NCBI RefSeq assembly: GCF_032854445.1
Contig: NC_088295.1
Coordinates: 72,320,028 to 72,384,027, forward strand
DNA length: 64,000 bases
Reading direction: 5' to 3'
From: Liolophura sinensis
Lineage: Eukaryota > Mollusca > Polyplacophora > Chitonida > Chitonidae
In this document: positions 8,550 through 60,157 of the stretch, in pieces
Position numbering within the stretch: position 1 is the first letter of the stretch
Layout of the letters: each line of letters opens with the position of its first letter
Made by a program: the position numbers and the translations under genes
The notes under the pieces: generated by a model
Told to the model about the DNA's origin: nothing
Seen by the model: only the letters and a program-made list of their open reading frames with translations
Database searches by the model: none

Positions 8550-8681
8550 AATCTAAAGAAGACGTGTGGATCTTGAGTTTGAAAGAACAAGCCCACATTG
8601 TGCGTTGCGATGTGATCTACTTGTCTGCTGATCTACCAGTTTGAGCTCTCAGGCAATTCTTGGCTTACACAAAGCCCGCAC

Positions 8682-9833
8682 TTGGATTATATAGCATATC
8701 ACTGGAGAAACTCGGGCTGGCGAGCAGAAAACTGTAGAATAATCATGTCAACAACAAACATCAGTGTCACAACGGTACCAGCCATGGCTGGCATCAGCAA
8801 TTTCAACGACACATTCGGACATGGAGAGCTCGAGAAATACGATGAATTCATCGCTGCGTTGTATATGAACAAATGTGGATTGTGGATTTTGACAATAGTT
8901 GGACTTGTATGTAACACGCTCGCCTTCCTGACAATTTCTTCCATAAAGCCCTTCGCCGCGTCTTCCTTTTCCGTGGCTCTTCTGGCCATTCTGGACACAG
9001 TTGTGTTGGTCATGAGACTGTTTTATCATCAGCTCACGGCCTATGACGTCTCCATGGGGGATGCTGGTTGTGCCATCCTCAGCTTCCTTGGGTCGTTTTT
9101 TCTCCATCTATCTACCTGGACTTTGGTCACAATGACAATAGAGAGGTTTGTAGCCGTGTGGTTTCCGCTTCGAGTGTCGGAATTTTTCACTCTGAAGAGA
9201 GCCAAGTTATCCATACTTATAATTTCGTTCATCCTTATCTTGTTGAACATGCATGTCCTCTGGATGACTCATGAATACATGAACCCTTTTCCTCCAATCG
9301 CCTTAGACTGCGGCTTCAGAAATGAGTACAAAGAATTCGAGGCTGACGTTTGGTTCTGGGTTAACTCCTGCGTCTACGCCTTCATACCTTGTGCGTCTAT
9401 GATCGTCCTTAACGCTCTTATCATATTCGGTCTGCACAAGTCCTTCAAGATGCAGAAACAGATGATCAACGGCGAATGCAGTTCATCCAGCAAGAACATG
9501 CAACAGAGGCAAATAACCATCATGCTGGTGACCGTGTCGGTGGCCTTTGCCGTGTTTCTGCTGCCCGTGTGTATATTTTACCTGGCGCGGTGGGAGCCTA
9601 AGACCCTCCGCGAGACAGCTCGCTATTACCTTACCCATGAGATCGTATTCTTCGTAGCGGAGTTGCATCACGCAGTGAACTTCCTCTTCTACTTCTTCAG
9701 CAGCCGTAAATTCCGCACAATGATGATCCGTCTTGTCACTTGCAAGTACCCGTCGACTAGGCGATCCGTGTACCAGTCACAGCAAGGAGCAACATCCACA
9801 ACCCAAAGTACTTCAATGTTCAACGAGCTCTGA
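8682..9833 (+). CDS. Class A (rhodopsin-family) G protein-coupled receptor, probable neuropeptide receptor
   Basis: One uninterrupted 383-residue frame encodes a seven-helix plasma-membrane receptor expected to signal through heterotrimeric G proteins. Helices as read: TM1 67-88 (conserved Asn78), TM2 96-115 (Asp105), TM3 127-150, TM4 175-195, TM5 224-251 (Pro236), TM6 278-301 (Pro295), TM7 320-341. Cys130 and Cys210 can form the usual TM3-ECL2 disulfide. The DRY motif is ERF (154-156) and NPxxY appears as NFLFY (333-337) followed by a basic helix 8 and a palmitoylation-type Cys354. N-glycosylation sequons (NIS, NDT) lie in the N-terminus. Start: Met1 at 8682 is the first in frame, but Met22 (8745) lies just before the sequons and is an alternative. 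The coding part has no intron; a probable 5' UTR acceptor ends at 8549. The motifs resemble protostome FMRFamide-type peptide receptors, but the ligand cannot be assigned from sequence. Confidence 0.9.
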   Translation: MDYIAYHWRNSGWRAENCRIIMSTTNISVTTVPAMAGISNFNDTFGHGELEKYDEFIAALYMNKCGLWILTIVGLVCNTLAFLTISSIKPFAASSFSVALLAILDTVVLVMRLFYHQLTAYDVSMGDAGCAILSFLGSFFLHLSTWTLVTMTIERFVAVWFPLRVSEFFTLKRAKLSILIISFILILLNMHVLWMTHEYMNPFPPIALDCGFRNEYKEFEADVWFWVNSCVYAFIPCASMIVLNALIIFGLHKSFKMQKQMINGECSSSSKNMQQRQITIMLVTVSVAFAVFLLPVCIFYLARWEPKTLRETARYYLTHEIVFFVAELHHAVNFLFYFFSSRKFRTMMIRLVTCKYPSTRRSVYQSQQGATSTTQSTSMFNEL

Positions 9834-21949: not shown

Positions 21950-24900
21950 ATGGCGACCTCAGCCCGGAAGAAGGTTTCTGTCACGTTTGCAGGGGACGAC
22001 GATGTGGTCAATCACATTGTGTATGCGGAGGAACGTCAGTCCGGTAATAAACCAGTAAAAGTTCAAGCACCGTCAATCCGACACATACAGGGCGTTTTCC
22101 CTCTGTAACCCCATCCCGCAACTAATCTACCTGCACAGTTTAAGGGTCTCCTGATGTGATATTTGTCAGAAAATCTGCATACATGTATCTTCATTGGACT
22201 GTGTCTTTGTCCCTATTTTACACAACACCACAACAAACCCATCAAAATAATCTTCAGACCCAGAAAATGCACTAATTAAATCTTTTCTCATCATATGGCA
22301 TTATCTTATAAGACAATGGCATATGGACTAGAACATGCCAAATTTTCAACTTGATGACCCAGACTATGACACAAAACAAGTCTTTTGTATCCCTCTAGAT
22401 ACCCTACCCACATCTTTGCAAATTTCTGACAAAAACAGTGTCAGATTAATCATTCACAATTTAGTGTGTATGTTAATTGCATTTCTTACCTGCTTAGTGA
22501 AATAAAATATGATATTTTCAAAAAGCATAGGTGGGGTGCCCCACATTAACACATGAGAATTGTTTTGCATTGTATTTTATACATACTTATGACAAACAGA
22601 AAGAGATATGCACATTTTACTCCATGGTATTGTCTTAGAAGATAATTAGATTAATCTTAATTATTGATTGTTTTTATATATGTTGCACATAGTCACTGTT
22701 TAATAAGGATTATTTTGAGCTCATTATTATTAGTGTTCTGTGTTTAGTATAAGGCAAGGAGTGGTCGAAAATAAATGTGCAGATATCTGACTTCAGAAGA
22801 CCCTTAAGGCTCCAAACATTTCTTAACAATCCAAATGGTGACCCGTGATCTGTCTTCCCATTTATCTGTAATCCATTAAATACAAATCTTCCAGAGAGCA
22901 AATAATTAAGCAAAGAAAAACTCACAGTAATCTTTATTAAATAATAATACAGCGGGCATTGTCATTAAATTACATGCTTTTTGATAAAGATATAAATAAA
23001 GCATGCTCAAGTAATCATGACGTAATTAATTTACAACTTTACATGTACTGCCTCCGTATTTATTTTTCTGACATTCATTCGGTCAGTGGACAACAAGGTA
23101 AATGACAGAATGTAAGGAGGGACTTTAACTTGCTGAATTATTAAATGTAAATGGTGAAGTACTATGCAGTATTCTAGTACCTATGTACATGATGTGTTAT
23201 TTTGGCAGTTTCGGATTCATTTTTTTGTCATGCAGTATGATGTACGTCAGCCCTTTAAAAAATCGGATGTTACAGCTGTACATGTAGAAGATAATCAGTG
23301 GACATGTGAAAGGGTAACGTTTTATTCTTGTCAGACTTACGACTGCGAAAAAGGTCTTCAGCTTCAAGATCAGGAAGTTACAGAAATACATCAAAGAGTA
23401 AAAATAATGAAAGTGATGGTGACAGTGATGAGGAAAATTTGGCCACACCCCTTTTTGGTAAGACATTGAGACTAAACTCGATGTAATTTTCGTATGGTTA
23501 AAAGCAATTCTTGAAAGTAGGTGAAACTGAAGTTTTTGCTTTCCTACCTAGATACACTGTAGCAACAAACACATTAGTTAAATGAGACTGAGGGCATTGC
23601 TATACATCCTGTTCTCTACATAGAAATAAGGTAGATAGTGTACATTGTGATTATGTTTGTGGTGATATGTAAAATGCCTGTAAAAATTGGAGGAGCACAT
23701 TATATGTTCCTTCATTAATATTCTTCTAATTGTGCTATTCTTGTGTTAAGAAAATGTTTAAATGTTTTGTTTCCCCTGAGGCCCTTCTTCCAAGTGAACT
23801 GTGACTAAATCTAACCAGTAAAATCTTAGATACAAAAGAAGTAACCTGCCATCAGTTTAGCTCCTCTGCCCTGCACTCATACATGTATACTGTATTTCAG
23901 GCCCACTTCAGGATGACAATGTCTTTGTCCAAGGAGCTGATCTTTTCCAGTTTAAAAGCACTAAAAAGTCTGACCAAATGATACTGAAGGGTATGTGTAA
24001 CATTACAGACATGATCTTTGGCTTATCTGTGAGAAGATATGGTGTAAGAAAACAATGAAAATCTAGCCAGATCTTGTTGTGATGTTATTCTGTAAAAAAC
24101 CATTTCATGCCTGCACGTGGGAAGGTCTGCCAGCAACCTGCCGATGGTCCTGGGTTTCCCCCAGCCTCTGCCCGGTTTCCTCCCACCATAATGATAAAAT
24201 TTAACAATGAAATATTCTTGAGTATGGCATGAAACACCAATCAGATAAATAAATAAATAAGATAAATAAAATTCCATTCTTTATCCTTTGATGTTATTTT
24301 CTCTGTTCCACAGTCCATCTCTGGACATAGCCTGTAATTAATAATACATTTATCTATTTCCAGCTAATGAAGCTAGGACTCCCAGATCTAAGTCTCAGAG
24401 TGAACCAACTCCGAAATCTAAGTCTTTGAGGAAGCAAGCAGCACAAGGTTCCAGTAAGAACTTTTCATGACGCTTCTGTCATCTGTGGTGAAAGTCAAAG
24501 AAATTTTATAACCCAGGGAAATCTCTTTAACCAGTCTTTTGAAAGGGCTCTCCAATAACAATACCATAAAAGTAGACTGTCCCATTAGTGACGAGAAAGT
24601 GTTTAAAAAGTAACATGCACAGCAAGAGGGTGTTTCAAGGTTTTCCAATAGATTATCTCCCCTTAGTGTTCCTGTCAGACTAGAGAGAATGTACCACATG
24701 TATACAGACTAATTGTGCAAATTCCATGCCTTATTTTATTTTTGTGGTGTGTCGGTATGGAAATTTACCAGCTTGAAGGTCTAGTTTAGTTAAGTCTTTT
24801 CATTACTTTCCTTGTAAATAAATTAGATAAATGGGTCAAATTGAATAAAAATACTGCTGAGAAAAATGATAAAACGTAGAAAGCTTTTGCAGTTCTCAAG

Positions 24901-27900
24901 TTGTGCATTCTGGCCTGATAGAAATATCTGTTTTCTGAATTGTTCCAGGTGTAAACCAGAAGACACCCGTCAAAAGAAAAACAGGACAGAATGGGAAGAG
25001 AATTGAAGCCACCACGCCTTTCAGGTTAAGAAAGAGAAATCATCTAGAAGGTAAGTCAGAGGTGAAATCTTAATTTCTTACCTGAAGCAATGGCTCTAGT
25101 CATTAATAGGTAGATGTAAAAGGCCTTGAATTCCTGGGTTCATAATTAGACATACATTTTAGACAGGTTGTTAGTTGTTATGCCAGTTCAGGTAGACCTA
25201 TGTGTACGTATATGCCAATACAGCAGTTATGAAATCATCCTCGCAGTCTCATCTGATTTTTATTTAATTATTTATTTCATTGCAGTTTTACGCGGTATTC
25301 AAAGATATTTCACTGATACAACAGTGGCCAGCATTATGTTGGGAAGAAATAGGGGAAACCCGCGACTATCAATAGGTTGCTAGGAGACCTTCCCATGTAC
25401 AAATGGAGAGGTTGTCTGCTTCTAACCAGACCATTATTGGCCAGTGATATAGCGAGTTCAAATCCCACTACTGCTGGCCCCACAGCAGTATTGCATGTAG
25501 GACAGGAGGTTTGCCAGGAGTGAACTCTGCCCTTCACTCATTAACTTGATCATCTACATATAAATGGAAGTTCTTGAGGTTGACATAAGACACAAATGTA
25601 GTAAATACTATAAGTTAAACCAGTGCATTGCATAATGGATAAACAGTCTACTGTAATTCTTCAACCTTTTCGCATGTTTACGAGGTGTTTATTCAGGCAT
25701 CTTCTGAAAACATTATTCAGTGTTGACTGATAAAATTAGACTTTCTGTGAAGCCCAGAAACTCACAAATCCAACCAGTGTAGTTTTGTCTCCAAAATTAA
25801 ATTATAAATGTGCATAAATTGCAATAAGATTGGCTCTTTTAAATGTGAAAAGGTTGAGGAATTGGGTAATATTTAATTCAGAAGGTTCATATTTTCCCAA
25901 ACCCGAAGAGTGAGTTGAAACATTCAGGACGAGGTATCAGGCTTTATACCAACACAAACACACTATTGAATTTATCACAATAAAAGGTGTTTACAGACCG
26001 CTGAAATAAGACCAACTGTCATATGTCTAAGTAAGATGCTTGTTGGTGTTGTTGTTGTTGAACAGGTGATGACTCCTCAGATGACAGTATTGACTCCCTC
26101 AGTGAGGAAGGGGAAGATTGGAAAGGATCTAAGGAGGCTCACCCCCCAACGCCCTCTGCACAATCCACACAGAGGACGCCTAGAAGACGCCCTGTAGTTG
26201 ATGACGGTCACATGGTTAGTGGAAACTTGCATCATGTGATCATGTGATCAATTCAACAATCATTATTCTCAAGGTTTTCCATATATGAAAAAATCTCATT
26301 AGTTTAGTAACCTAAGTTTCCATTTTGTAATTTATGAAATTGAAATCGACTCACCATTGTTAAAAATAAGACATCAGCTATTAACCTTAGCCATTTCGGA
26401 AGAGGGTGGAAGCTGACCTAAATGGTCACAGCCCATTTTCTTGTGACATGCGTGAGATGCATCATGTTAAGGAAGCAGGACATGATGGTGCGTCTTTTGT
26501 ATCCCACGCTCATGGCATGTACCACACTGCTGTCCATGTAGGAAAAAGCCAGGTAATTGATTTTGACATATTGTAACTTCTGTAGACAACGGTGGTCGTT
26601 CAAAATTCTATGGACTGCCTTCTAGTGAACTTTTATTAAACCCTGATTTTTACATGTAAGTTTTCCTTTCTGCCAACTTTGATGACCTTTTTCAATTCAG
26701 TAGCTAAGCTGTTTTCTTATTTTCCCATTTCAGCCAGACATGGTTGGGGATTACTTTGAGATTCAGAGTGGAGGCCCAGGGCCTACATCAGACAGAACTC
26801 TGGCCAAACTTGGCGCTTCTCGCATGAGTGAATCGGCACTTTCCAACATTCTTCAGTCTGTTCTTACATCTCACAAGAGGGAGTGTGCTCAGCTAGTGGA
26901 ACAACATGGTCAGCTGTTCAGTCAGTGGATGTACCAGATGTGGTCAGTTCCGCATGCAGCACCTTGTTTTGAATTATAAAATTTACATACTTTACACCGA
27001 GAAGAAGCCTTTTATTCGTTTTATTTGGTGTAGAGAATTTTCTCCAACATTGATGAAAGTATTTCGTTAAAAAGGCTCTGTATTAGCTCAGAAAATGACA
27101 ACTTTAGGATGTTTTTAAGTTCTTCATTAAGTGTTTGAAATATGTAATTAGAAGGTCACTTGTCTGATGATTGAAACTTGAGTGCAATTTTTATGGTTAA
27201 ATATTCATTAAGAAGAAAAAAAAAAAGCCACACCTATCAGGAAATTAAGACGTAAATCTGTATGTTTTGTTTTTTCCATGATATTTCAATTTTGTGTTTC
27301 CAATCAGCAACGGGTTCAACTTGCTGTTATATGGCCTGGGATCTAAACGCTCTTTAATGGAGGAGTTCAGAGTAAAAATATTACACGATTTCACTCACCT
27401 GGTTGTCAATGGTTACTTCCCAAGTCTCACAATGAAACAGGTAATTTGTTTTCTTTTCCTCACTTAAGTACATGGTCATGTTTGCTCCTTGAGTATGAGT
27501 AAATTTAGTATCTGAAATTTTGTTACTGGAAGAAATTAATGAAGATTTGCATTTATTACTTGGATACAATTTAACAGTACATGTATTGGAAGTTGCTATG
27601 GAAATGTTTACTTTTTAATTTATGGACTTGGTCTCCATCTACATACATTATAGTTCATGAGAGATTGTTTGTTTCAGATTCTGAATTCTATAACAGAGGA
27701 TATCTTAGACCATTCTGCCAACTTTAGGAATCCTTTGGACCAGATAGATTTTATCAAGCAACATTATACATCAGAAGGTAAATTGTCGATGTTAATGGTT
27801 TTCTACATGCATCATCAACAGATTAGTGACATTTTACAGTGGACAAATGCACTGTGCTTAAATGGATTTTAAAACCCAGGAATAGAACTTGGCATGGTTT

Positions 27901-30900
27901 GTGACTGCATCATTAAGATACTTGTCTTTCAATTGCTACAGTACAGCCGGATCTACTCTTACCTTCGAATGGTCAAGGCGCCACGATTGACACGAGTAGT
28001 TCTATCTACTATTCTAGTTTCAGTTTACACTAAAAATTTATTATTACTTCCTTGTAAACCTGTGCTGGCTATGTGAAGGGCCAAACCAATCCAATAGACT
28101 GGCACTAGGTTTGTCTTAAAGCCTACTATGGGCAGTAATCATTATGAGATTGTGAAAATTTGTGGTCTCGAAGCTGCTTGCCTTCTACCAATAGGATATA
28201 AATCATACATGAGAAAGTTGATCATTTACTGACCAACCTTGTTGTAGCATTAAACAGACACCAAATAGATCAATTAAATATATAATGATATCTCAGATTT
28301 CATCATCAGGAGTAGCACTAATATATACACTGACAACTTTTCCGAACGGAGCAATAATCAAATAAAAAAGTGTTTAAAACAAGGGCCAAAGACATCGTGC
28401 ATCTATACGTTTTTCCTTATGGCTTAGCTGTGACTTCATATCATGAAATCAAGAAGGTGCTTGCAAGGTGCAGTGGTTGCCTTATAAACTTAAGCAAATA
28501 ATTAGAAGCCTATTTGTGTTTTCCTTCTTTCAGATGAACAAATAACGATCTACTTGCCATATACAACTTAATAACAACTGTTTACATTCTTTTGTGACTG
28601 GTTTCAGGTTATGAGGATGTCTACATTATCCTGAACAACATTGATGGCACCATGTTAAGGGCTGAGAAGACACAAACCATGCTGAGTGTGCTGGCTCAGA
28701 TACCAGGCTTCCACATCATAGCTTCTATAGACCACATCAACGCCCCACTGAGTAAGTTAGGCTTCCACATCATAGCTTCTATAGACCACATCAACGCCCC
28801 ATTGAGTAAGTTAGGCTTCCACATCATAGCTTCTATAGACCACATCAATGCCCCACTGAGTAAGTTAGGCTTCCAAATCATAGCTTCTATAGACCACATC
28901 AACGCCCCACTGAGTAAGTTAGGCTTCCAAATCATAGCTTCTATAGACCACATCAACGCCCCACTGAGTAAGTTAGGCTTCCACATTATAGCTTCTATAG
29001 ACCACATCAACGCCCCACTGAGTAAGTTAGGCTTCCACGTAATAGCTTCTATAGACCACATCAACGCCCCACTGAGTAAGTTAGGCTTCCACATCATAGC
29101 TTCTATAGACCACATCAACACCCCACTAAGTAAGTTTGGCTTCCACATTATAGCTTCTATAGACCACAACAACACCCCACTGAGTAAGGCTCCACATCAT
29201 AGCTTCTATAGACCACATCAACGCCCCACTGAGTAAGTCAGGCTTCCAAATCATAGCTTCTATAGACCACATCAACGTCCCATTGAGTAAGTTAGGCTTG
29301 CACATCATAGCTTCTGTAGACCACATCAACACCCCACTGAGTAAGTTAGGCTCCACATCATAGCTTCTATAGACCACATCAACGCCCCACTGAGTAAGTT
29401 AGGCTTCCAAATCATAGCTTCTATAGACCACTTCAACGCCCCACTGAGTAAGTTAGGCTTGCACATCAAAGCTTCTAAAGACCACATCAACGCCCCACTG
29501 AGTAAGTTAGGCTTGCACATCATAGCTGCTATAGACCACATCAACACCCCACTGAGTAAGGCTCTGCATCATAGCTTCTATAGACCACATCAGCGCCCCA
29601 CTGAGTAAGTTAGGCTTGCACATCATAGCTGCTATAGACCACATCAACGCCCCACTGAGTAAGTTAGGCTTGCACATCATAGCTTCTATAGACCACACCA
29701 ACACCCCACTGAGTAAGGCTCTACATCATAGCTTCTATAGACCACATCAACGCCCCACTGAGTAAGTTAGGCTTCCAAATCATAGCTTCTATAGACCACA
29801 TCAACGCCCCACTGAGTAAGTTAGGCTTGCACATCATAGCTTCTATAGACCACATCAACACCCCACTGAGTAAGGCTCCACATCATAGCTTCTATAGACC
29901 ACATCAACGCCCCACTGAGTAAGTTAGGCTCCACATCATAGCTTCTATAGACCACATCAACGCCCAACTGAGTAAGTTAGGCTCCACATCATAGCTTCTA
30001 TAGACCACATCAACACCCCACTGAGTAAGGCTCCACATCATAGCTTCTATAGACCACATCAACACCCCACTGAGTAAGGCTCCACATCATAGCTTCTATA
30101 GACCACATCAACGCCCCACTGAGTAAGTTAGGCTTGCACATCATAGCTGCTATAGACCACATAAGTGCCCCACTTAGTAAGTTAGGCTTGCACATCATAG
30201 CTTCTATAGACCACATCAACACCCGACTGAGTAAGTTAGGCTCCACATCATAGCTTCTATAGACCACATCAACACCCCACTGAGTAAGGCTCCACATCAT
30301 AGCTTCTATAGACCACATCAACACCCCACTGAGTAAGGCTCCACATCATAGCTTCTATAGACCACATCAACGCCCCACTGAGTAAGTTAGGCTTGCACAT
30401 CATAGCTGCTATAGACCACATAAGTGCCCCACTTAGTAAGTTAGGCTTGCACATCATAGCTTCTATAGACCACATCAACACCCGACTGAGTAAGTTAGGC
30501 TCCGCATCATAGCTTCTATAGACCACATCAACACCCCACTGAATAAGTTAGGCTTAAACATCATAGCTTCTATAGACTACATTAACGCCCCACTGAGTAA
30601 GTTAGGCTTCCAAATCATAGCTTCTATAGACCACATCAACGCCCCACTGAGTAAGTTAGGCTTGCACATCATAGCTGCTATAGACCACATCAACACCCCA
30701 CTGAGTAAGGCTCTACATCATAGCTTCTATAGACCACATCAGCGCCCCACTGAGTAAGTTAGGCTTGCACATCATAGCTGCTAGGGGCCTCCGTGGCTCA
30801 GTCGGTTAAAGCGCTAGCGCAGCGTAATGACCCAGGAGTCTCTCACCAATGCGGTCGCTGTGAGTTCAAGTCCAGCTCATGCTGGCGGCCGTACGTGAGA

Positions 30901-33900
30901 AGGTCTGCCAGCAACCTGCGGATGGTCGTGGGTTTCCCCCGGGCTCTGCCCGGTTTCCACCCACCATAATGCTGGCCGCCGTCGTATAAGTGAAATATTC
31001 TTGAGTACGGCGTAAAACACCAATCAAAAAAAAAAAAAAAAAAAAAAATCATAGCTTCTGTAGACCACATCAACGCCCCACTGAGTGAGTTAGGCTTGCA
31101 CTTCACAGCTACTGTAAACCACTTTAATGCTCCACTGTGTAAGTTAGCCATGTATAGACCACATGAGTGAGTTGGGTTTCCACATCATAGCTTTTATAGA
31201 CCACACCAAGGCCCCACTGAGCAAATGTAAGTTAGGCTTCCATATCATAGCTTCTGTAGACCACATCAACGTCCCACTGATGAGTTAGGCTTCCATGTCA
31301 TACCTTCTATAGACCACTTCAACATCCCTCTGATGAGTTAGGCTTCCACATCATAGCTTCTGTAGACCACATCAGTGCCCCAATAAGTAAGTCAGGCATG
31401 TCTAGTCCACATCAGTGCCCCACTGAGTAAGTTAGGCTTCCACATCATAGCTTCTGTAGATAACATCAACGCCCTACTGAGTAAGTTTGGCTTCCATATC
31501 ATAGCTTCCATAGGTCACACAACAAACCAGGAAAAATGGGATATCAAAATTTTTATCCTATGATTGGAACATTTCATATTAGTCATTATGTATAAGTATT
31601 AGTGAAATTTTTCAAAACAGTATCATTGATCATCGTTCAGATGGGAAAGGGTGCTGGGTTGTAATAATTAGAAATTGATCAAAGGGCTTTGATCCAGCAA
31701 TTGCTTTGAGGTTCACACGCAGGTTTTCAAGGTTTGCCATTTTGGTTTAAGTTAAACTTAATATGAAGATATTATGAATGGGAACTGAATGGGTTAGAAT
31801 ATAAAGGGAGATAACTCTGAGTACTCTCATCTTTAATGTTTAGAGTTTTCTGTCACAGATTCTGTCTAATACATGATGATGGGGATGGGGGGTGGTGGAT
31901 TGGGTGAAATACCCAATTTTCTCTTTTCCGAATTCATACATGTATAAGTTGTGTGTACATAAAACTTGCATACATATCAAGTTTTATCGACTTTCTGTGT
32001 TGTCACTAGTCTGGGACCAGATGAAGTGCAGCCGGTTTAATTGGCTGTGGTACGATGTGACGACCTACTTACCTTACACGGAGGAGACATCCTACGAGAA
32101 CTCGCTGTTGGTGCAGCAGACCGGTGCACTGGCCCTCAGCTCTCTCACCCATGTCCTTAAGAGTTTGACACTCAATGCAAGGCGCATATTTCTGCTACTC
32201 GCTCACTTTCAGATGGATAACAAACCAGGAAACCCTGCATACACAGGCAAGTCCTCTTGATAGTCTCTTAGAATTAATTAGCATTAGTTAATAAATGTGA
32301 AAGAATTTCTGTGGTTGTTGATCGTGCGTTTTTTCCTGCCAGATATTGTGCTGATCAAGTTCATTTGTATCACTCAGGAGCCTCTCACCAATGTGGTCGC
32401 TGTGAGTTCAAGTACAGCTCATGCTGGCTTCCTCTCCATCTGTACGTGGGATGGTCTACCAGCAACCTGCGGATGTTTGTGGGTTTCCTCCGGGCTCTGC
32501 TCGGTTTCCTCCCACCATAATGCTGGTCTCCGTCGTATAAATGTAATATTCTTGAGTACGGCGTAAAACACCAATCAAATAAATAAATAAATACTTTCGT
32601 GATATGTACTAGGGTTGTTATTTTTTATTTTCCATTCTTTCTGGAATGTCTTTTCATGATATCTACCAGGGGTGTTATATTTTATTTTCTCTTTATTCAG
32701 GAATGACCTTTCGTGATATGTACCTGGTGTGTTATATTTTATTTTCCGTTCTTTCAGCAATGTCCTCTCGTGATATCTAACACTTTCATGGTGTGTAACA
32801 GGTGTGTTATATTTTATTTTCTCTTCATGCAGGAATGTCATCTCATGATATGTACCAGGTGTGTTATATTTTATTTTCTCTTTATTCATGATATCAACCA
32901 GGGGTGTTATATTTTATTCTCTCTTTATTCAGGAATGCCCTTTCGTGATATGTACCAGGTGTGTGATATTGTATTTTCTCTTCATTCATGATATCTACCA
33001 GGGGTGTTATATTTTATTTTCTGTTCAATCAGGAATGAGCTTTCGTGATATCTACCAGGTGTGTTATTTTTTATGTTCTCTTCATTTCAGGAATGTCATC
33101 TCATGATATGTACCAGGTGTGTTATATTTTATTTTCTCTTTATTCATGATATCTACCAGATGTGTTATATTTTATTTTCTGTTCATTCAGGAATGACCTT
33201 TCATGATATATACCAGGTGTATTATATTTTATTCTCTCTTTATTCAGGAATGCCCTTTCGTGATATGTACCAGGTGTGTGATATTGTATTTTCTCTTCAT
33301 TCATGATATCTACCAGGGGTGTTATATTTTATTTTCTGTTCAATCAGGAATGAGCTTTCGTGATATCTACCAGGTGTGTTATTTTTTATTTTCTCTACAT
33401 TTCAGGAATGTCATCCCATGATATGTACCAGGTGTGTTATATTTTATTTTCTCTTTATTCATGATATCTACCAGGGATGTTATATTTTATTTTCTGTTCA
33501 TTCAGGAATGTCTTTTCAGGATATGTACCAGGGTGTTATATTTTACTTTCTGTTCTTTCAGGAATGTCTTGTCGTGATATCTACCAGGGGTGTTATATTT
33601 TATTTTCTGTTCTTCCAAGATTGTCTTTTCGTGATATGTACCTGGTGTGTTATATTTTTTTTTCTCTTCATTCAGGAATGTCTTTTCAGGATATGTACCA
33701 GGGGTGTCACATTTTACTTCCTGTTCGTTAAGGAATGTCTTTTCGTGATATATACCAGGGCTGTTACATTTTACTTCCTGTTCGTTCAGGCATGTTTTTT
33801 CATGATATCTACCAGGGGTGTTATATTTTATTTTCTGTTTTTTTCAGGAATGTCTTTTCGTGATATGTACCAGAGGTGTAGAGAAAGCTTCCTAGTGAAT

Positions 33901-34659
33901 AGTGATCTTACTCTGAGGACACAGCTGACAGAGTTCAGGGATCACAAACTTATCACCTCCAAGAAGGTAGGATTACCTAAGTTCAGGGCTGTAGAGAGTC
34001 TTCCCAGGCCAAATTCTGCCATCCATTGAACTGGCTAAGAAGGAAACCTGCCTAAAGAAGTAGTATATTATTCTTCCGACACTCTTTCTATTTAGTTGTG
34101 TTTGTAAAGCAGAGAGTTCATTCAGAAACACTGCAAGGTAGGAGGGGAGAATGTTGTGTTTTTACTCATTCCTTATTGCATATTTTAAGTTGCTTACAAC
34201 TGTTGTTTTGCTATCTGGTATTAAAAAATATTCATTAGTTGTGTCATATATGTGAACAGATCTTGAGTATGACAGTAAACATTGAAGAAGTAAATCACTA
34301 CTGCTTGTTTGTATGCACTATGTTCAGACATAATGGGTATGAAAATGTTTCCTTTCTTAATGAAAAGATTGTGCCAAAAATATCAAATTAGTGTTGATAT
34401 TTGGGTTCAAAACAAAAAGCCAGCTCCGCATGTCATTTATGGTAACCATTGAAATATATTCATTTAACATTAGAAGTGTTTGTACTTCATTACTTCAGAG
34501 CAAAAGAAATGCCAGCTTAACTTAGACCAAACCTCATATGCTATCTTTAATTTCTGTGATCAGGGTCATGATGGAATGGAGTACCTGCTAATTCCAGTAG
34601 AAACAGCCACATTGTCAGAGTTCCTGGAGACACAAGAAGACCGTCTGACCCAAGACTGA
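21950..34659 (+). CDS. ORC2: Origin recognition complex subunit 2, complete, 13 exons
   Basis: ORC2 is a nuclear subunit of the ATPase complex that marks replication origins and helps load the MCM helicase. Exons: 21950-22043, 23335-23457, 23901-23990, 24364-24453, 24949-25050, 26066-26214, 26734-26942, 27308-27440, 27678-27777, 28608-28751, 32010-32246, 33848-33966, 34564-34659. They give 561 residues, against 577 as I recall for human. The N-terminus has [14 protein letters not shown], the conserved ORC2 start. Residues about 30-216 are a basic, acidic and Ser-rich tail, likely disordered. The AAA+-like domain starts near 217: [10 protein letters not shown] (Walker A position), YIILNNID (Walker B position), [12 protein letters not shown] (397-411), [20 protein letters not shown]. 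The C-terminal winged helix has [20 protein letters not shown]. Intron 11 uses a GC donor (CAG/GCAAGT). Introns 10 and 11 hold large arrays built from their own splice junctions. Splice sites near the arrays were chosen by phase and homology. Confidence 0.96.
24110..24268 (+). mobile_element. Main mollusc-type SINE, 5' truncated, in ORC2 intron 3
   Basis: Starts at CACGTGGGAAGGTCTGCCAG and ends in AATCAGATAAATAAATAAAT; a short unrelated stretch replaces the GGCCGCCGTCGTATAAG part. Confidence 0.75.
25260..25412 (-). mobile_element. Main mollusc-type SINE fragment in ORC2 intron 5
   Basis: Reverse complement of the 3' half: TTTAATTATTTATTTCATTG, TTTTACGCGGTATTCAAAGA, CCAGCATTATGTTGGGA and GGTTGCTAGGAGACCTTCCC. 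Orientation opposite to the gene. Confidence 0.7.
28706..31515 (+). repeat. Minisatellite of the ORC2 exon 10 end plus its 5' splice site (54-bp unit, about 45-50 copies)
   Basis: The first copy is the true end of exon 10 (residues from Gly397) with the donor CTGA/GTAAGTTAG at 28751/28752. The same 54 bp (coding for an 18-residue [18 protein letters not shown]-type peptide) then repeats head to tail. Unit lengths are 54, 53 and 49 bp, the last two losing TTAG or CT-region bases. The first copies are all 54 bp and stay open in frame from the exon to 29236. Nearly every unit keeps GAGTAAG. A 259-bp higher-order repeat occurs around 30162 and 30421. A SINE interrupts the array at 30784-31048, and units beyond about 31060 are more diverged and irregular. 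Confidence 0.95.
30784..31048 (+). mobile_element. Full-length main SINE inside the ORC2 intron 10 array
   Basis: Head GGGGCCTCCGTGGCTCAGTC with tRNA A-box character, B-box-like GTGAGTTCAAGTCCAGC, the GC-rich middle, the ATTCTTGAGTACGGCGTAAA tail and a pure A run of about 24. Flanks ATCATAGCTGCTA (30771-30783) and ATCATAGCTTCTG (31048-31060) look like a target duplication, but the host array is itself periodic. Few differences from the family make it young. Confidence 0.9.
32374..32593 (+). mobile_element. Main SINE, head truncated, in ORC2 intron 11
   Basis: Runs from AGGAGCCTCTCACCAATGTG through the middle to ACACCAATCAAATAAATAAA. It sits directly between the exon 11 donor (about 130 bases upstream) and the start of the splice-acceptor array. 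Confidence 0.85.
32594..33870 (+). repeat. Minisatellite of the ORC2 exon 12 start plus its 3' splice site (57-bp unit, about 20 copies)
   Basis: Each unit contains a pyrimidine tract (TTTATTTTCTGTTCATTCAG), then GAATGTCTTTTCGTGATATG and TACCAGG.GTGTTATATT. The last unit is the true acceptor and the first bases of exon 12 (GA ATG TCT TTT CGT GAT ATG TAC CAG). Most units are 57 bp; some lack the GAATGTC part and are shorter, and the last full intronic unit is 58 bp. Many units therefore display a complete acceptor, and those with CCAGGTGTGT also show a weak donor 26 bases after it. Confidence 0.94.
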
Positions 34660-34961
34660 AGAGCTGGCTTCTGTCAACATTGTTATATACAGGACACAAA
34701 AAAAAGATAGTTGACTTAGCTATGTGCAGAACTGTACACCTGTTTGCTGTCAACACTGTCATGCACATGTGCATATGGATCTGGTGACTTGTGCATATGC
34801 AGGACTGTGCACCTGTTTGCTGTCATCTGCAGTACATATGGGACAGGTGACTTGTCTATGTACAAGACTGTACACTTGTTTGCTGTCAACACTGTTATCT
34901 ACAGTATGTATGGGACAGGTGACTTGTCTGTATGCAGGATTGAACACTTGTCTATATGCAG

Positions 34962-35005
34962 TATATTCTTGAGTATGGCGTAAAACACCAATCAAATAAA
35001 TAAAT
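34962..35005 (+). mobile_element. Very short SINE 3' end in the ORC2 3' UTR array
   Basis: Only TATATTCTTGAGTATGGCGT, AAAACACCAATC and the AAATAAATAAAT tail are present, flanked on both sides by CTATATGCAG (34952-34961 and 35006-35015). This fits a severely 5'-truncated insertion with a 10-bp target duplication, although CTATATGCAG also belongs to the host repeat unit. Confidence 0.75.
34995..35000 (+). terminator. Candidate ORC2 polyadenylation signal (AATAAA) inside the SINE tail
   Basis: This is the first AATAAA I noticed after the ORC2 stop (336 bases downstream) and it comes from the inserted SINE tail. Whether it is used is unknown. Confidence 0.35.
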
Positions 35006-35494
35006 CTATATGCAGAACTGTACACCTGTTTCCTGTCAACACTGTCATCTATGGTACATATGGGACAGGTGACTTGTCTATATGCAGGACTGTGCACCTG
35101 TTTACTGTCAACACTGTCATATACAGTACATATGGGACAGGTGACTTCTCTGAAAGCAGGACTGTGCACCTGTTTGCTGTCAACAGTGTCATCTGCAGTA
35201 CATATGGGACAGGTGACATTTCTATATGCAGGACTGTACACCTGTTTGCTGTCATCACTGTTATCTGCAGTATAGTACATATGGGACAGGTGACATCTGT
35301 TTGCTGTCAACACTGCCATCTGCGGTACATATGGGACAGCTTACTTGTCTATATACAGACTGCTTTGGCAACAGTAAGTGGTCAACAATGCTCTTTGGGC
35401 TATTTGCGCAGTCAAACAATTGTTGAAGACCACATTTTTTGTGTGGCGTGCACATCTGTACATCACGTTTGCAAAAGTGCCATTTACTTGCCAA

Positions 35495-35576
35495 AGGTCA
35501 GTGGGTTTCCCCAGACATTTCCCATAGTCTATAATGCTAATCGTCATCGTATAAGTGAACATTTCGTGAATTTGGG
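35495..35576 (+). mobile_element. Decayed SINE 3' half
   Basis: CAGTGGGTTTCCCCAGACAT, TAATGCTAATCGTCATCGTA and TAAGTGAACATTTCGTGAAT align with the main SINE middle and tail but with many differences and no A-rich end. Confidence 0.5.
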
Positions 35577-49000: not shown

Positions 49001-52000
49001 AACAGGTCAGATTTGAGAACAACTCAAATGGGCACAGTAGATAACAGAGCTTTCAGCTGTTTGACAAACACCAGCATGACAGCTAAAGGTTATCACTGGA
49101 GGTTGCTGTTATTGAACTAGCAGAGACATGTATAAGTATTACAGCCCACCTCTTGATAATGCTTCTTGTCTAGAAGTACATCCGGTACACGTACCAAGTT
49201 GACGGAGGAGGTTATGTGGGGACACTCCTTATTCAAAGCCGGGGCCTTCAGGTCCAAGTAGTTAGTGTGGTAGCATAGCACAATGGCCCCGAGGCCTCTG
49301 ACCAGTGTGATCACATTGAGATCATGCTGGCCTCTTCACTGGTTGTACATTTGAAGGTCTGACAGCAATCTGCAGACGGTTGTTGACTTTCCCTGGGGTC
49401 TGTTCGCTTAAACAAATATTGCTGTCCCAGTTCTGTCAACCCTAGATTAACATATATACTTTGATTTGTTTTGATTCATCTGTAAACTTGTATGTTGTTA
49501 CAAGTCTGGCTGAAAGTTTGTCAAGCACATGTGTAACCCCAAATTGTGTTCCAGAGTCGAACAAGTACATACTCACAAAAATCCATGTCGTCTTGCACTT
49601 GGGCCCTCCATTATGGGAATGGCCAATAATAAAAGATAGGATGTGAAAAGTTTGAACAGATGAACAGACAGACAGACAAAGCACCTGTGTAATATAGAGC
49701 TACATATCACATCTAGGGAGACATATGAAATGCAAACTGTCACTTTTAAGATGCAAAATAGATGACTTTTGTGAGATTCTCATATCATTTGCATGTAAAA
49801 AAGGGCAGAAATTTTCTTCCTTTCTCTGATTTTCAATGATTTTTGTGAGATTTTCCTATCATTTGCATGTAAGAAAAGGGTAGAAATTTTCTTCCTTTCT
49901 CTGATTTTTTGTGAAATCCTTCACTGATATGTTCTTATAGTTTGGAGACTGGAACTGAAAGTCTTGATTCAATGTAAAGCTTCAAAACAAAGAAAAATAT
50001 TAATTAAGAAGTAATGTTTACTTCAGGCAAAGGTGTTCATAAGAAGCATTTGTTTTGCATTAACTTCCGTTTTGAACATATATGTTCATTTATTTCCCTC
50101 TGGAATGTTTTTGTTTTTATTTTGCTGGTTTTTACTCTGAAAATGTTTGCAGACGGGTCATATCAAGGGCTATGGATTTGTGGAGTTCCAGTGTAAGGAA
50201 GTGGCAAAAATTGTTGCTGATACCATGAACAACTACTTGATGTTTGAAAGATTGCTGAAATGTAAGATTTTAACCAGTCTTCATGTATGTTAAACATTCC
50301 AAGGCTGCATTTTCTACATGTACACAAACATACAGTCCTTGATATGGGATATAATGAACTTGTGTGTAATAATCTCAATTTAAATCTGTATCGATTTTGA
50401 TGAACACACTAGGTACTGAGTGCTGTGAACTGTGATTTCCACCCACTGTTTTTTTCTCTGGTTCTCCCTGGGCTGAGTGGTTCTCTCTGTCAGGTTTCAT
50501 GCACCCACATAAAGACTGCTGTCGTGTGTTTGTCGGTGTGTGTGTACATCAGTGTGTCTTTGATTGTATACATCATTGAATGTTTGATGTGTACATCCTG
50601 CAAGTCCAGCTCATGCTGACTTCCTCTCCGGCTCTTCGTGGGAAGGCCTGCAGCAACCTGCGGATGGTTGTGGGTTTCCCCCGGGTTCCTCCCACCATAA
50701 TGCTGGCCACCGTCGTATAAGTGAAATATTCTTGAGTGTAGCGTAAAAACGCCAATCAAATAAATAAATCAAATGTACATCCTGTAGGTGAGTACTTGCC
50801 CCAGGACAAGGTTCACCCTGACACCTTCAAAGGCTCCAACAGACCATTCTCCATGCCTAAAAGCCACCTCCTAGCCATTGAGAGACACAACCGAGTCAAA
50901 TCTGATGATGTGGAGAAGAAAAATCAGCTGAGTTTTGTACAAAAGTATGAGAAGAAAATGGCCAGACTAGCAAAACTCGGCATAGATTATAAGCTAGAGT
51001 CCTTGGTGAGTACCTTGTTTGTGTGGAATTCACATTTCAAATTTCTACATGCTCAAATCTTTGGTGTGAATGATTGTTCACATTGGGCCCAGTTTCACAA
51101 AGCAGCGTACAACATTTTCTTATCGTACATTTCTCTTATGATATTTTGCACTTATTGCACATGTGCAACATCTTTGTAAGACTGATCCCTGGTCTTTTGT
51201 CTGAATGATTGTGCAGGTGATGCATATCAGTTAATATGTGTGCTGGGTGAGTGTAAAGGACTATGTATATTTTACAGCCAGATTTGTTCTTTGTGAGTGT
51301 AGAGGACTATTGTACAGCCAGATTTGTCCTTTGTGAGTGTAGAGGACTGTTGTACAGCCAGATTTGTCCTTTGTGAGTGTAGAGGACTGTTGTACAGCCA
51401 GATTTGTCCTTTGTGAGTGTAGAGGACTGTTGTACAGCCAGATTTGTCCTTTGTGAGTGTAGAGGACTGTTGTACAGCCAGATTTGTCCTTTGTGAGTGT
51501 AGAGGACTGTTGTACAGCCAGATTTGTCCTTTGTGAGTACGGTCAGATCCACAGTTAGAACAGTGGTGATTGTTAATAGTAGTTTCATTCAGTCATAGCT
51601 TGGAAAATGTTTTATAAACACTCATTCTTAAGCTATTGTGCTGGGACAGGGAGTTACTATATTCCCTCCTTGCCAGTATTCATCTTGCCTACTTGACAAT
51701 AAGAGTTTATAGATCCATTTTCACAGTCGTAGATTCATAGACAACCACTTGTCTTCAGCCAGTATGTATGTCACCCACTGAAAAGTTTGAATGTGACTTG
51801 CCATTGGTGAGGGGTTTACTTACTCTTGGCACTACGGTTTTCTTTCCTCGTAAAGCTGATCACCATTATGTGCAGGAAAAATGTAGGAGTATGGCATACA
51901 GCAAAACTCATTGAATTTATCAAGTCTTTGTCTTATTACAGGAAAATTCTGATGTCATGAAGGCTTATAATAAGAGAAAATCTGAACAGGATGAAAACGC

Positions 52001-54727: not shown

Positions 54728-55007
54728 GGGGCCTCCGTGGCTCGGTTGGTTAGCGCTTTTTACCGGTTAGCGCGCTAGCGCAGCGTAACGACCCAGGAGT
54801 CTCTCACCAATGCGGTCGCTGTGAGTTCAAGTCCAGCTCATGCTGGCTTCCTCTCCGGCCGTACGTGGGACGTCTTCCAGCAACCTGCGGATGGTCGTGG
54901 GTTTCCCCCGGGCTGTGCCCGGTTTCCGCCCACCATAATGCTGGCCGCCGTCGTATCAGTGAAATATTCTTGAGTACGGCGTAAAACACCAATCAAAAAA
55001 ATCAAAA
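54728..55007 (+). mobile_element. Full-length young SINE with clean target duplication
   Basis: Complete family copy with tRNA head (GGGGCCTCCGTGGCTCGG), B-box-like GTGAGTTCAAGTCCAGC, and tail ending CAATCAAAAAAATCAAAA. The 14-bp word TCCATTCTTTATTA flanks it at 54714-54727 and 55008-55021. The head holds a short internal duplication (GGTTAGCGC...GGTTAGCGC). Confidence 0.93.
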
Positions 55008-57623: not shown

Positions 57624-60157
57624 TGTTATGTATGACTATTTAACGTTTTCATGTACTGTTAGTCTGCAGACCTTTGTGAAAGCATAACAGGCCCTGTTAT
57701 ATATGTACAGTGCGGACCGGATGGAAAACACCTTGTTCAATGCTTCGTTTATTTCATTGGTTGTTAATTCTGTGTTTAAAAATAGTTGAATCCACCTGGA
57801 ACGTATATAAGCCATGTTTTCTGTGCAGAGTGGAGGTATTTTTGCTACATCCACTGGGAGCCAGGAGAGTGTGCGACGCTGTCGTATCGAGTCCATTATA
57901 TTGATATGAGCTGGTGATGCCAGTTTCATTTGGGAGGACAGATTTTTATGCCGGCACCGTTTGTGTACCACAGTAGTACTGATGTCTGGTTTATGTGAAT
58001 TTCTGCGGAAGTCACGTTTATTGGTGTTCGGATCTTTATTATGATTATACAGTGTTGACTGTGTAATTTGTTTAACACGCTGACCTCACCTGACCGACAA
58101 GGTCGTCAAGGACTCTAAACTGAAGTTTTCAGTTTTGCAAAGGATGTTCGTTCTGCCACAAGGTGACAGTAAAGTAAGTATGACAAAGAGACAGTAAGAC
58201 GCAGATTTGAAGTTGGTCAGAAGGTATTGGCCTTACTTCCAGTTAGTGGTAAGCCACTTGAAGCTCGTTATTTTGGACCTTATGTAGTAGACAAGAGGCT
58301 AAGTGATCTTAATTATATTATTTTCACTCCTGATCGGCGCAAATCTAGACAACTTTGTCACATTAACATGTTAAAGCCATATGTGGACAGAGATAGCACT
58401 GATCTCAATGTTGTACATCCTAGTGGAGTTGCTATCTCTTGTTTTCCAGTGCCAAGTTGTAAAAGAGAATTAAAGCGTTTTTGGAGCATGGCAGGTTATT
58501 ATCGTAAGTTCTGTAGGAACTTTTCATTTGTTAGTGAGCCACTAACTCAGCTGTTAAAGAAAGGTGCTAAATTCTTGTGGTCCATTGAGTGTCAGAGATC
58601 TTTTGATAGATTAAAGGCCATGCTAAGCAGCGGCCCCATACTTGTAGCACCTGATTTTAATTTACCATTTAAGCTAGCTGTTGATGCTAGTGATATATCT
58701 GCTGGGGCAGTTTTGTTACAAGCAAATGAAACAGATCACGTTGATCACCCTGTATGTTTTTTCTCTCGAAAATTTGACAAGTGCCAGAGAAATTATTCGA
58801 CAATAGAAAAGGAGTGTCTGTCCTTGATTCTAGCATTACAGCATTTTGAAGTATATGTGACTTCGTCAAGTTACCCCATTGTTGTGTATACAGATCACAA
58901 TCCCTTGACCTTCTTGCACAAACTAAAAGGTAAAAACCGAAGATTGTTACGGTGGAGTTTGCTTTTGCAAGAATTTGATCTAGAGATTAGACACATAAAA
59001 GGGAAAGATAATGTGATTGCTGATTGTTTGTCACGTGTCTAGTTGGTTTTCTGCAGCTTTGTTTTTAAAGACTGTGGTAAACTTTGTTATTATTCATAAT
59101 TATGAATATGTTAAAGAAAGTTTTATGCAAAACTTTCTTTCCCTGAAGGGTGGGGGTGTTATGTATGACTATTTAACGTTTTCATGTACTGTTAGTCTGC
59201 AGACCTTTGTGAAAGCATAACAGGCCCTGTTATATATGTACAGTGCGGACCGGATGGAAAGCACCTTGTTCAATGCTTCGTTTATTTCATTGGTTGTTAA
59301 TTCTGTGTTTAAAAATAGTTGAATCCACCTGGAACGTATATAAGCCATGTTTTCTGTGCAGAGTGGAGGTATTTTTGCTGCATCCACTGGGAGCCAGGAG
59401 AGTGTGCGACGCTCTCGTATCGAGTCCATTATATTGATATGAACTGGTGATGCCAGTTTCATTTGGGAGGTCAGATTTTTATGCCAGCACCGTTTGTGTA
59501 CCACAGTAGTACTGATGTCTGGTTTATGTGAATTTCTGCGGAAGTCACGTTTATTGGTGTTCGGATCTTTATTATGATTATACAGTGTTGACTGTGTAGT
59601 TTGTTTAACACGCTGACCTCACCTGACCGACAAGGTCGTCAAGGACTCTAAACTGAAGTTTTCAGTTTTGCAAAGGACGTTCGTTCTGCCACAAGGTGAC
59701 ATTACTCTACGTCTCTGAACGGCTCGTTTGTGAGTTTCTGCGGGAGCTGTGACCGTTCTAAAGTGGATTATACCTCCATGCCTGTATTTACCCTGTGTTG
59801 TGCTCTGCGGGTGTGACGTCATTCAAAGGCTTGACTGTTTCAGTTCTGTGTAACCTGTGTACTGTGTTCGCGTTCGCTAACCTAGCGAAGTACCTGACTG
59901 GGACAATTTGTGACTTGTGCGAACTGTGTGTTTATCCCATGGTCTTTACGTTGGATCTCCTGGAATACGTTCCTTGGGATGCAAACGTGAACTGGAAACT
60001 TTTAAAGACCGGTAATACTGATGTGTATGTTTTTTTATGTTGTTGTTGTTGAACTGTCTGTAAAACTGTACGTCTCATTTTATATATAAAGCATTGTTTA
60101 CATTGTAATACTGAGTCACTGAGTCTGTTTTCTGTTGCTGTTTTCATTACCGTAACA
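57624..60157 (+). mobile_element. Ty3/gypsy-type LTR retrotransposon, reduced fossil
   Basis: Two long terminal repeats in direct orientation begin TGTTATGTATGACTATTT at 57624 and 59157; the right LTR ends in ACA at 60157. GTCC flanks the element at 57620-57623 and 60158-60161, a 4-bp target duplication. A purine-rich tract (GAAGGGTGGGGGTG) precedes the right LTR. Between them lies a single pol-derived stretch with an integrase C-terminal part, then reverse transcriptase C-terminal and RNase H parts. The element is broken: the interior is far shorter than a whole element, with at least two large losses. By eye about 8 differences separate the LTRs over about 545 bp (near 1.5 percent), so the insertion is fairly young. 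Integrase before RNase H recalls the Gmr1-like order of Ty3/gypsy elements. Confidence 0.88.
58227..59042 (+). pseudogene. Pol-derived remnant of the LTR element
   Basis: A 271-codon open stretch. The first part (EARYFGPYVVDKR...LCHINMLKPY) resembles the GPY/F region at the integrase C-terminus. The second (MAGYYRKFCRNFSFVSEPLT, then AVDASDISAGAVLLQ and YTDHNPLTFL) is the end of reverse transcriptase and RNase H of Ty3/gypsy elements. It is an incomplete fossil of a larger polyprotein, not a host gene. Confidence 0.88.

Follow-up and report, generated by a model that had tools for sequence, protein, structure and literature searches.

Minisatellites that span exon-intron boundaries have been described in amphioxus under the name of mirages and, according to the available parts of the two reports, they occur in several genes and at both 5' and 3' boundaries (PMC3087553, PMC3902484). 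In these parts the loci named are globin genes, Adh3 and others as cited (PMC3087553) as well as PGBD5, Adh and troponin C (PMC3902484). Unit sizes are given as 10-72 bp for Adh3 and 150-160 bp for the globins, and for BflGb6 the units are 81-100% identical, with 6 and 3 copies in its two haplotypes (same available text, PMC3087553). In human segmental duplications internal tandem repeats at exon-intron boundaries affect gene structure (available part of PMC2812944), and in a mollusc, the abalone, an intronic minisatellite is associated with intronic length variation (available part of PMC6905558). Within the open-licence part of the literature we found no exon-boundary minisatellite from a mollusc, only those of amphioxus and of human segmental duplications. 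Word searches did not find "tandem" in the body of the publication on the Liolophura genome (PMC11068029), nor "tandem repeat", "minisatellite" or "satellite" in the main text on four new chiton genomes (PMC12005716).

Here we describe two such arrays in neighbouring introns of one chiton gene. The window analysed is a stretch of 64,000 nucleotides from Liolophura sinensis, the species name following a published correction (PMC12441733), and the assembly comprises 632 scaffolds and 609.5 Mb according to the available text of its publication (PMC11068029). Both arrays are hosted by ORC2, whose product is a DNA-replication protein. Joining the last seven exons gave an open ORC2 C-terminus, and the best database match of the query was P0001, which shows 100% identity along the query and carries the NCBI name ORC2-like isoform X2 (Liolophura sinensis). 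The gene and its arrays are arranged as follows, where a slash marks the exon-intron border:

21950..34659, plus strand, ORC2 coding region, 13 exons matching P0001
28608..28751, plus strand, ORC2 exon 10, true donor CACTGA/GTAAGTT, end at residue 409-410 within the RecA-like domain (residues 233-478)
28705..30783, plus strand, donor array of 54-bp units made of the exon 10 end and donor, 39.4 copies (TRF)
32010..32246, plus strand, ORC2 exon 11, ending in the GC donor ACACAG/GCAAGT
32369..32593, plus strand, dispersed repeat with (AAAT)n tail, directly abutting the 5' end of the acceptor array
32594..33879, plus strand, acceptor array, a partial unit and 23 modules of mostly 57 bp (TRF, cutting at the T-rich tract)
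32885..33514, plus strand, higher-order repeat, a 315-bp multi-unit block in tandem (TRF row 32885-33612, 2.3 copies, 92% matches)
33816..33879, plus strand, terminal array copy, comprising the functional acceptor (AG 33846-33847) plus 32 nt from the start of exon 12
33848..33966, plus strand, ORC2 exon 12, start at residue 489 of P0001 within the winged-helix domain WHD_ORC2 (residues 484-543)

Across both junctions, at exon 10 and at exon 12, the protein aligns with ORC2 chains of the PDB, which we take to be the human and fly entries. The donor of intron 11, located at 32246/32247, is GC instead of GT, and P0001 agrees with this junction. In P0001, a single database gene model (isoform X2), exon 10 is joined at the first donor and exon 12 at the last acceptor, which means that the exon-proximal site is used on both sides and all other copies are intronic.

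The initial annotation had proposed that the start of exon 12 together with its 3' splice site is repeated about 20 times in units of about 57 bp, each with a T-rich tract, an AG and the exon 12 head. The composition of the units was borne out, and with 23 modules their number was also about right, but for usable acceptors, of which there are 17, the estimate was slightly high. TRF reports overlapping rows across 32594-33879, the top two being 32885-33612 (period 315, score 1256) and 32885-33873 (period 158, score 1122). Cutting yielded 22 upstream modules and the true exon 12 head, with the partial unit at 32594-32612. Most modules are 56-58 bp long, five have 43 bp and one has 75 bp, and the last one runs on into exon 12. 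A full module begins with about 31 nt that have the T-rich tract and its AG at their 3' end, and continues with 26 nt that copy the exon 12 head. Since the first bases of the module, GGTGT, match exon 12 too (AGGTGT), what was duplicated is best understood as some 26 nt of intron plus about 31 nt of exon.

As had been claimed, the array ends with the true exon 12 acceptor (AG 33846-33847, first exon base 33848), and its homology extends 32 nt into the true exon 12 before it ends. With a threshold of at least 70% pyrimidine at positions -16 to -3, AGs in the acceptor register were found in 17 of the 23 modules, the true one included, whereas the five 43-bp modules have lost the canonical AG. 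The upstream units diverge from the true copy by 7-18%, so that the exact string GAATGTCTTTTCGTGATATG, which had been read as a part of the units, is present in some of them but not in all. Compared with the true copy, mismatches were found at 93 of 677 positions in the intron part and 55 of 506 in the exon part, and thus the pseudo-exon part is not clearly better kept. Mismatches at codon positions 1, 2 and 3 of the pseudo-exon copies (8/156, 19/173 and 28/177) were set aside because the copies share ancestry. Copies near exon 12 are no more similar to the true one than remote copies are (22 copies, Spearman 0.002, P 0.99). When a 121-bp probe of the exon 12 junction was compared with the 609-Mb assembly, all matches lay at the ORC2 locus (at least 15). 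Rfam at gathering thresholds gave no match in 30500-35500.

The donor array in intron 10 is the counterpart of this structure, and the earlier statement that one gene carries a donor array and an acceptor array, each composed of the neighbouring exon edge, is supported. Its 54-bp unit joins 47 nt from the 3' end of exon 10 to the 7 nt with which intron 10 begins, and the exon 10 end with its donor is copied over 40 times in the intron. Beyond an inserted dispersed repeat, diverged copies continue up to about 31523. Starting at the true donor, a scan for five kinds of donor hexamers detected 46, and the inserted repeat accounts for at least one of them. The full frame is kept by nine of these 46, namely the true donor and the next eight, so splicing from any of donors 2-9 would lengthen the protein by a multiple of 18 residues. 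In this array similarity to the true copy declines away from exon 10 (rho -0.61, P 8e-6; 45 of 49 blastn pieces used, the copies being non-independent). The exon 10 junction probe matched the ORC2 locus only, with at least 46 matches in the 609-Mb assembly.

Use of the upstream acceptors would mostly be harmful. The nearest one, with its AG at 33788-33789, adds 58 nt, shifts the frame as had been predicted, and leads to a premature stop. The same outcome is predicted for 14 of the 16 upstream acceptors in total, in support of the view that the choice of acceptor is not neutral for the protein. Only acceptors 33506 and 33620 would keep the frame, with 114 and 76 added residues, respectively; all of these results presuppose that nothing is removed between the acceptor in question and the exon 12 end. 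The 26-nt micro-exon mimics pointed out in the initial annotation are present in nine units, seven with CAG/GTGTGT, one with CTG/GTGTGT (32701) and one with CAG/GTGTAT (33191). Inclusion of a single micro-exon (nine of 26 nt, one of 25 and one of 44) results in a premature stop in 11 of 11 units. Since upstream acceptors and micro-exons mostly give stops, the cell should mostly ignore the array, and P0001, a single database protein model (isoform X2), is normal and does so.

Acceptor strength was considered as a sufficient cause for the choice of the site and rejected. With a simple, untrained matrix, the true site scored 13.1, the same as 33562 and below 33676 with 13.8, and therefore the choice must rest on other context. 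The true site has a run of seven T, while 15 of the 16 others have runs of 3-4 and 33676 has T8. The purine fraction of the downstream exon beyond the shared head is 0.62 at the true site and 0.29-0.44 at the others, so that among the 17 only the true site combines the T7 run with a purine-rich downstream exon. All 17 acceptor modules have at least 28 AG-free bases upstream of the AG, in which a branch point and the tract would fit, and judged by the letters each copy could be a complete 3' splice-site module. We infer that exon definition from the downstream donor, aided by the T7 run and the purine-rich exon, selects the exon-proximal acceptor.

The ORC2 arrays resemble the amphioxus mirages in several respects. 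Their units span the boundary, those of the acceptor array combining the intron 11 end with the exon 12 head, a single end copy forms the genuine junction while the rest are intronic by P0001, and many but not all copies keep the AG or GT, in the acceptor array 17 of 23 modules. The units measure 54 and 57 bp, with the 7-18% divergence of the acceptor units given above. The differences are that the host is a chiton and not a cephalochordate, that there are 23 and over 40 copies compared with the 6 and 3 given for BflGb6 in the available text (PMC3087553), that the arrays lie in two neighbouring introns of one gene, and that they are known here from sequence alone. With the human case ORC2 has in common the minisatellite-size repeats at exon-intron boundaries; in recent paralogues of the human genes, by contrast, expansion of the repeat makes exons longer or gives rise to new introns (available part of PMC2812944). 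Intron gain by tandem genomic duplication likewise involves an intragenic tandem duplication with splice signals, but the ORC2 array sits inside an existing intron (available part of PMC4974935).

The array can also be compared with two further kinds of gene structure. In tandem alternative or mutually exclusive exons, repeated exon-like units lie between constitutive exons. The ORC2 copies differ from these, as they comprise an exon head of about 26 nt and every one of the 11 inclusions ends in a premature stop. A recursive (ratchet) splice site is made of a T-rich tract followed by AG/GT, and the CAG/GTGTGT of several units would be a candidate for such a site, although in some units it does not directly follow the tract.

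To see how common such arrays are, two samples of the genome were used. In eighteen 10-kb stretches at fixed positions on scaffolds C1-C4, 39 minisatellite arrays (period 15-200, at least 2.5 copies) account for 9.3% of the DNA (16.8 of 180 kb). The second sample consists of 49 kinase hits out of 138 listed matches, giving 98 edges, and was not picked for repeats: 20 hits were taken with 500-bp flanks, 20 with 300-bp flanks and nine in six stretches with 200-bp flanks, where short exon-like matches were preferred and long single-frame ones excluded. Pfam hit edges only approximate true exon edges and are not always such edges, so 98 overstates the number of junctions surveyed. The ORC2 junctions (2/24) were left out of the edge count because ORC2 was the finding. 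A splice-site duplication was found at five of the 98 kinase exon edges, four arrays and one doublet, and the four arrays carry the exon's own splice site:

L036 and L037, acceptor arrays at kinase exons
L039 and L042, donor arrays at kinase exons

In L037 (G000:C3:13489085-13490297) the acceptor array ahead of the kinase exon has 80-bp units in 6.8 copies (93%) and reaches the end of the sequence examined, beyond which it may continue. The doublet, L079 (G000:C8:49941089-49942088), contains about two copies of the 3' end of the kinase exon with its donor, 76 bp apart, and is possibly a newborn boundary array; the kinase is presumably Aurora-like. Three further arrays in kinase flanks (L035, L045, L047) do not touch a hit. 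Together with the amphioxus mirages, which are known already in the available literature, these five duplications speak against an exceptional nature of the ORC2 arrays.

The number expected by chance was calculated as array density times unit length, which gives 1.25% per edge if arrays of at least 2.5 copies are counted and 1.66% if every TRF row of period 15-200 is included. The 9.3% array fraction itself was rejected as a null because an array meeting an exon intrudes by at most about one unit. For all TRF rows, five edges of 98 were observed with 1.6 expected (Poisson P 0.025), and for arrays of at least 2.5 copies four with 1.2 expected (P 0.036); compared with the sparser arrays of the kinase flanks, four were seen in the first 80 edges with 0.24 expected, as a rough value. 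Given the small sample and thresholds that were chosen once the data were known, a preference for splice junctions is suggestive only. The small sample does suggest that boundary arrays are frequent in this chiton genome.

We consider the acceptor array, with a probability of about 0.85, to be an exon-boundary minisatellite of the mirage kind, an expanded tandem duplication that is carried as an intronic passenger. A tandem duplication would have captured the final 26 nt or so of intron 11, T-rich tract and AG included, together with roughly 31 nt from the beginning of exon 12, and this unit would then have grown to 23 copies through slippage or unequal exchange, every copy except the exon-attached one being a passenger in the intron. 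Such an array may be tolerated because the exon-proximal acceptor, the sole copy joined to the full exon and the downstream donor, stays in use, and most mis-spliced products would contain a premature stop. The same process may have taken place, mirrored, at the exon 10 donor. This chiton genome abounds in minisatellites, and boundary arrays turn up in unrelated genes. What the data show is the anatomy of the sequence, its origin at a single locus, the gene model, the consequences for the frame and the recurrence in a sample, while the order of events, the neutrality and the choice of the exon-proximal site by exon definition are proposed. In its exon part the unit repeats the coding start of exon 12, and across that junction the protein can be aligned with ORC2 chains of the PDB, which makes the exon the likely origin of the array. 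A pre-existing repeat or transposon that supplied the sequence and was adopted by exon 12 is accordingly very improbable. It is true that the array is bordered on its 5' side by a dispersed repeat, but this repeat is widespread and its presence there means little, whereas the junction probe matches the ORC2 locus only (a lower bound). An assembly artefact would be just as surprising. Tandem repeats are prone to mis-assembly, and the HiFi coverage is only 14x, but the mean HiFi read of 8,347 bp exceeds both arrays (1.3 and 2.8 kb), as far as the available text of the genome paper states these values (PMC11068029), and the units show individual substitutions and a higher-order structure.

A functional role, in which unproductive splicing to rival acceptors or 26-nt pseudo-exons reduces or adjusts ORC2 output, would be in agreement with the 16 upstream in-register acceptors that keep their AG, 14 of them leading to a premature stop, with the GT donors behind the micro-exons of nine units and with the room for a branch point in each of the 17 modules. 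Nevertheless we regard it as improbable, as the P0001 model ignores the array, five units have lost the AG, the exon part of the copies is about as diverged as the intron part, and similar arrays occur in unrelated kinase genes, so that no ORC2-specific role is needed. Compatible with the passenger minisatellite that we favour is the more tentative idea that splice junctions are preferred sites of birth or survival of minisatellites in the chiton lineage, either because the boundary promotes duplication or because the conserved copy keeps the array recognisable for longer. The excess at kinase edges, which is larger against the density of the kinase flanks, points in this direction, and so does the donor array, which is most exon-like beside the exon. 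However, apart from the sample size, the post hoc thresholds and the approximate Pfam edges, the cases are uneven among the batches (four among the first 20 exons, one among the last nine and none among the 20 between them), and the acceptor array has no gradient; we hold this idea to be possible but doubtful. Simple growth outwards from the exon predicts a similarity gradient, which is present in the donor array and absent in the acceptor array. A neutral exon-boundary minisatellite is still the most likely mechanism, and the array looks like a by-product of a repeat-rich genome and not like a new splicing device.

New in this case is the boundary array, doubled, in a chiton gene and the sign of its frequency there, while the kind itself is known from amphioxus, as the available texts attest. 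Exon-boundary minisatellites are thereby extended from amphioxus genes to a mollusc genome, in which the small sample suggests that they are common. If so, an annotated assembly together with RNA data would make it possible to study the way in which the spliceosome settles on a single acceptor among 17 that are nearly identical, or on a single donor among more than 40, and to ask if boundary arrays feed intron gain. If the preference for junctions is true, a few percent of chiton exon edges would carry tandem copies of their own splice site, providing natural experiments on splice-site competition and raw material for intron sliding and gain outside chordates.

Several other elements were observed in the window. 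A third array in ORC2, at 34820-35272 with 72-bp units in 6.2 copies (TRF), lies 3' of the stop codon and presumably in the 3' untranslated region. In a downstream gene, which we take to be NIFK-like, a donor-like TCCTTG/GTGAGTA is located at 51005, and about 270 bp beyond it a 40-bp array of 6.7 near-identical copies (51273-51538) contains TCCTTTGTGAGTG in most units; this is perhaps a displaced or decayed donor array. The dispersed repeat with the (AAAT)n tail, which we assume to be SINE-like, is found at 30784-31047, 32369-32591, 54764-55007 and other positions. Two queries gave 18 and 17 blastn pieces in the window, themselves included, and the repeat occurs in 17 of the 18 sampled stretches. 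The region 57636-59618 resembles a retroelement remnant, with reverse-transcriptase RNase H and integrase C-terminal matches in one frame (58173-59042), which is flanked by two near-identical minus-strand frames (57636-58085 and 59169-59618). Finally, an open frame of 405 amino acids at 8616-9833 shows a rhodopsin-type 7TM match in one piece.
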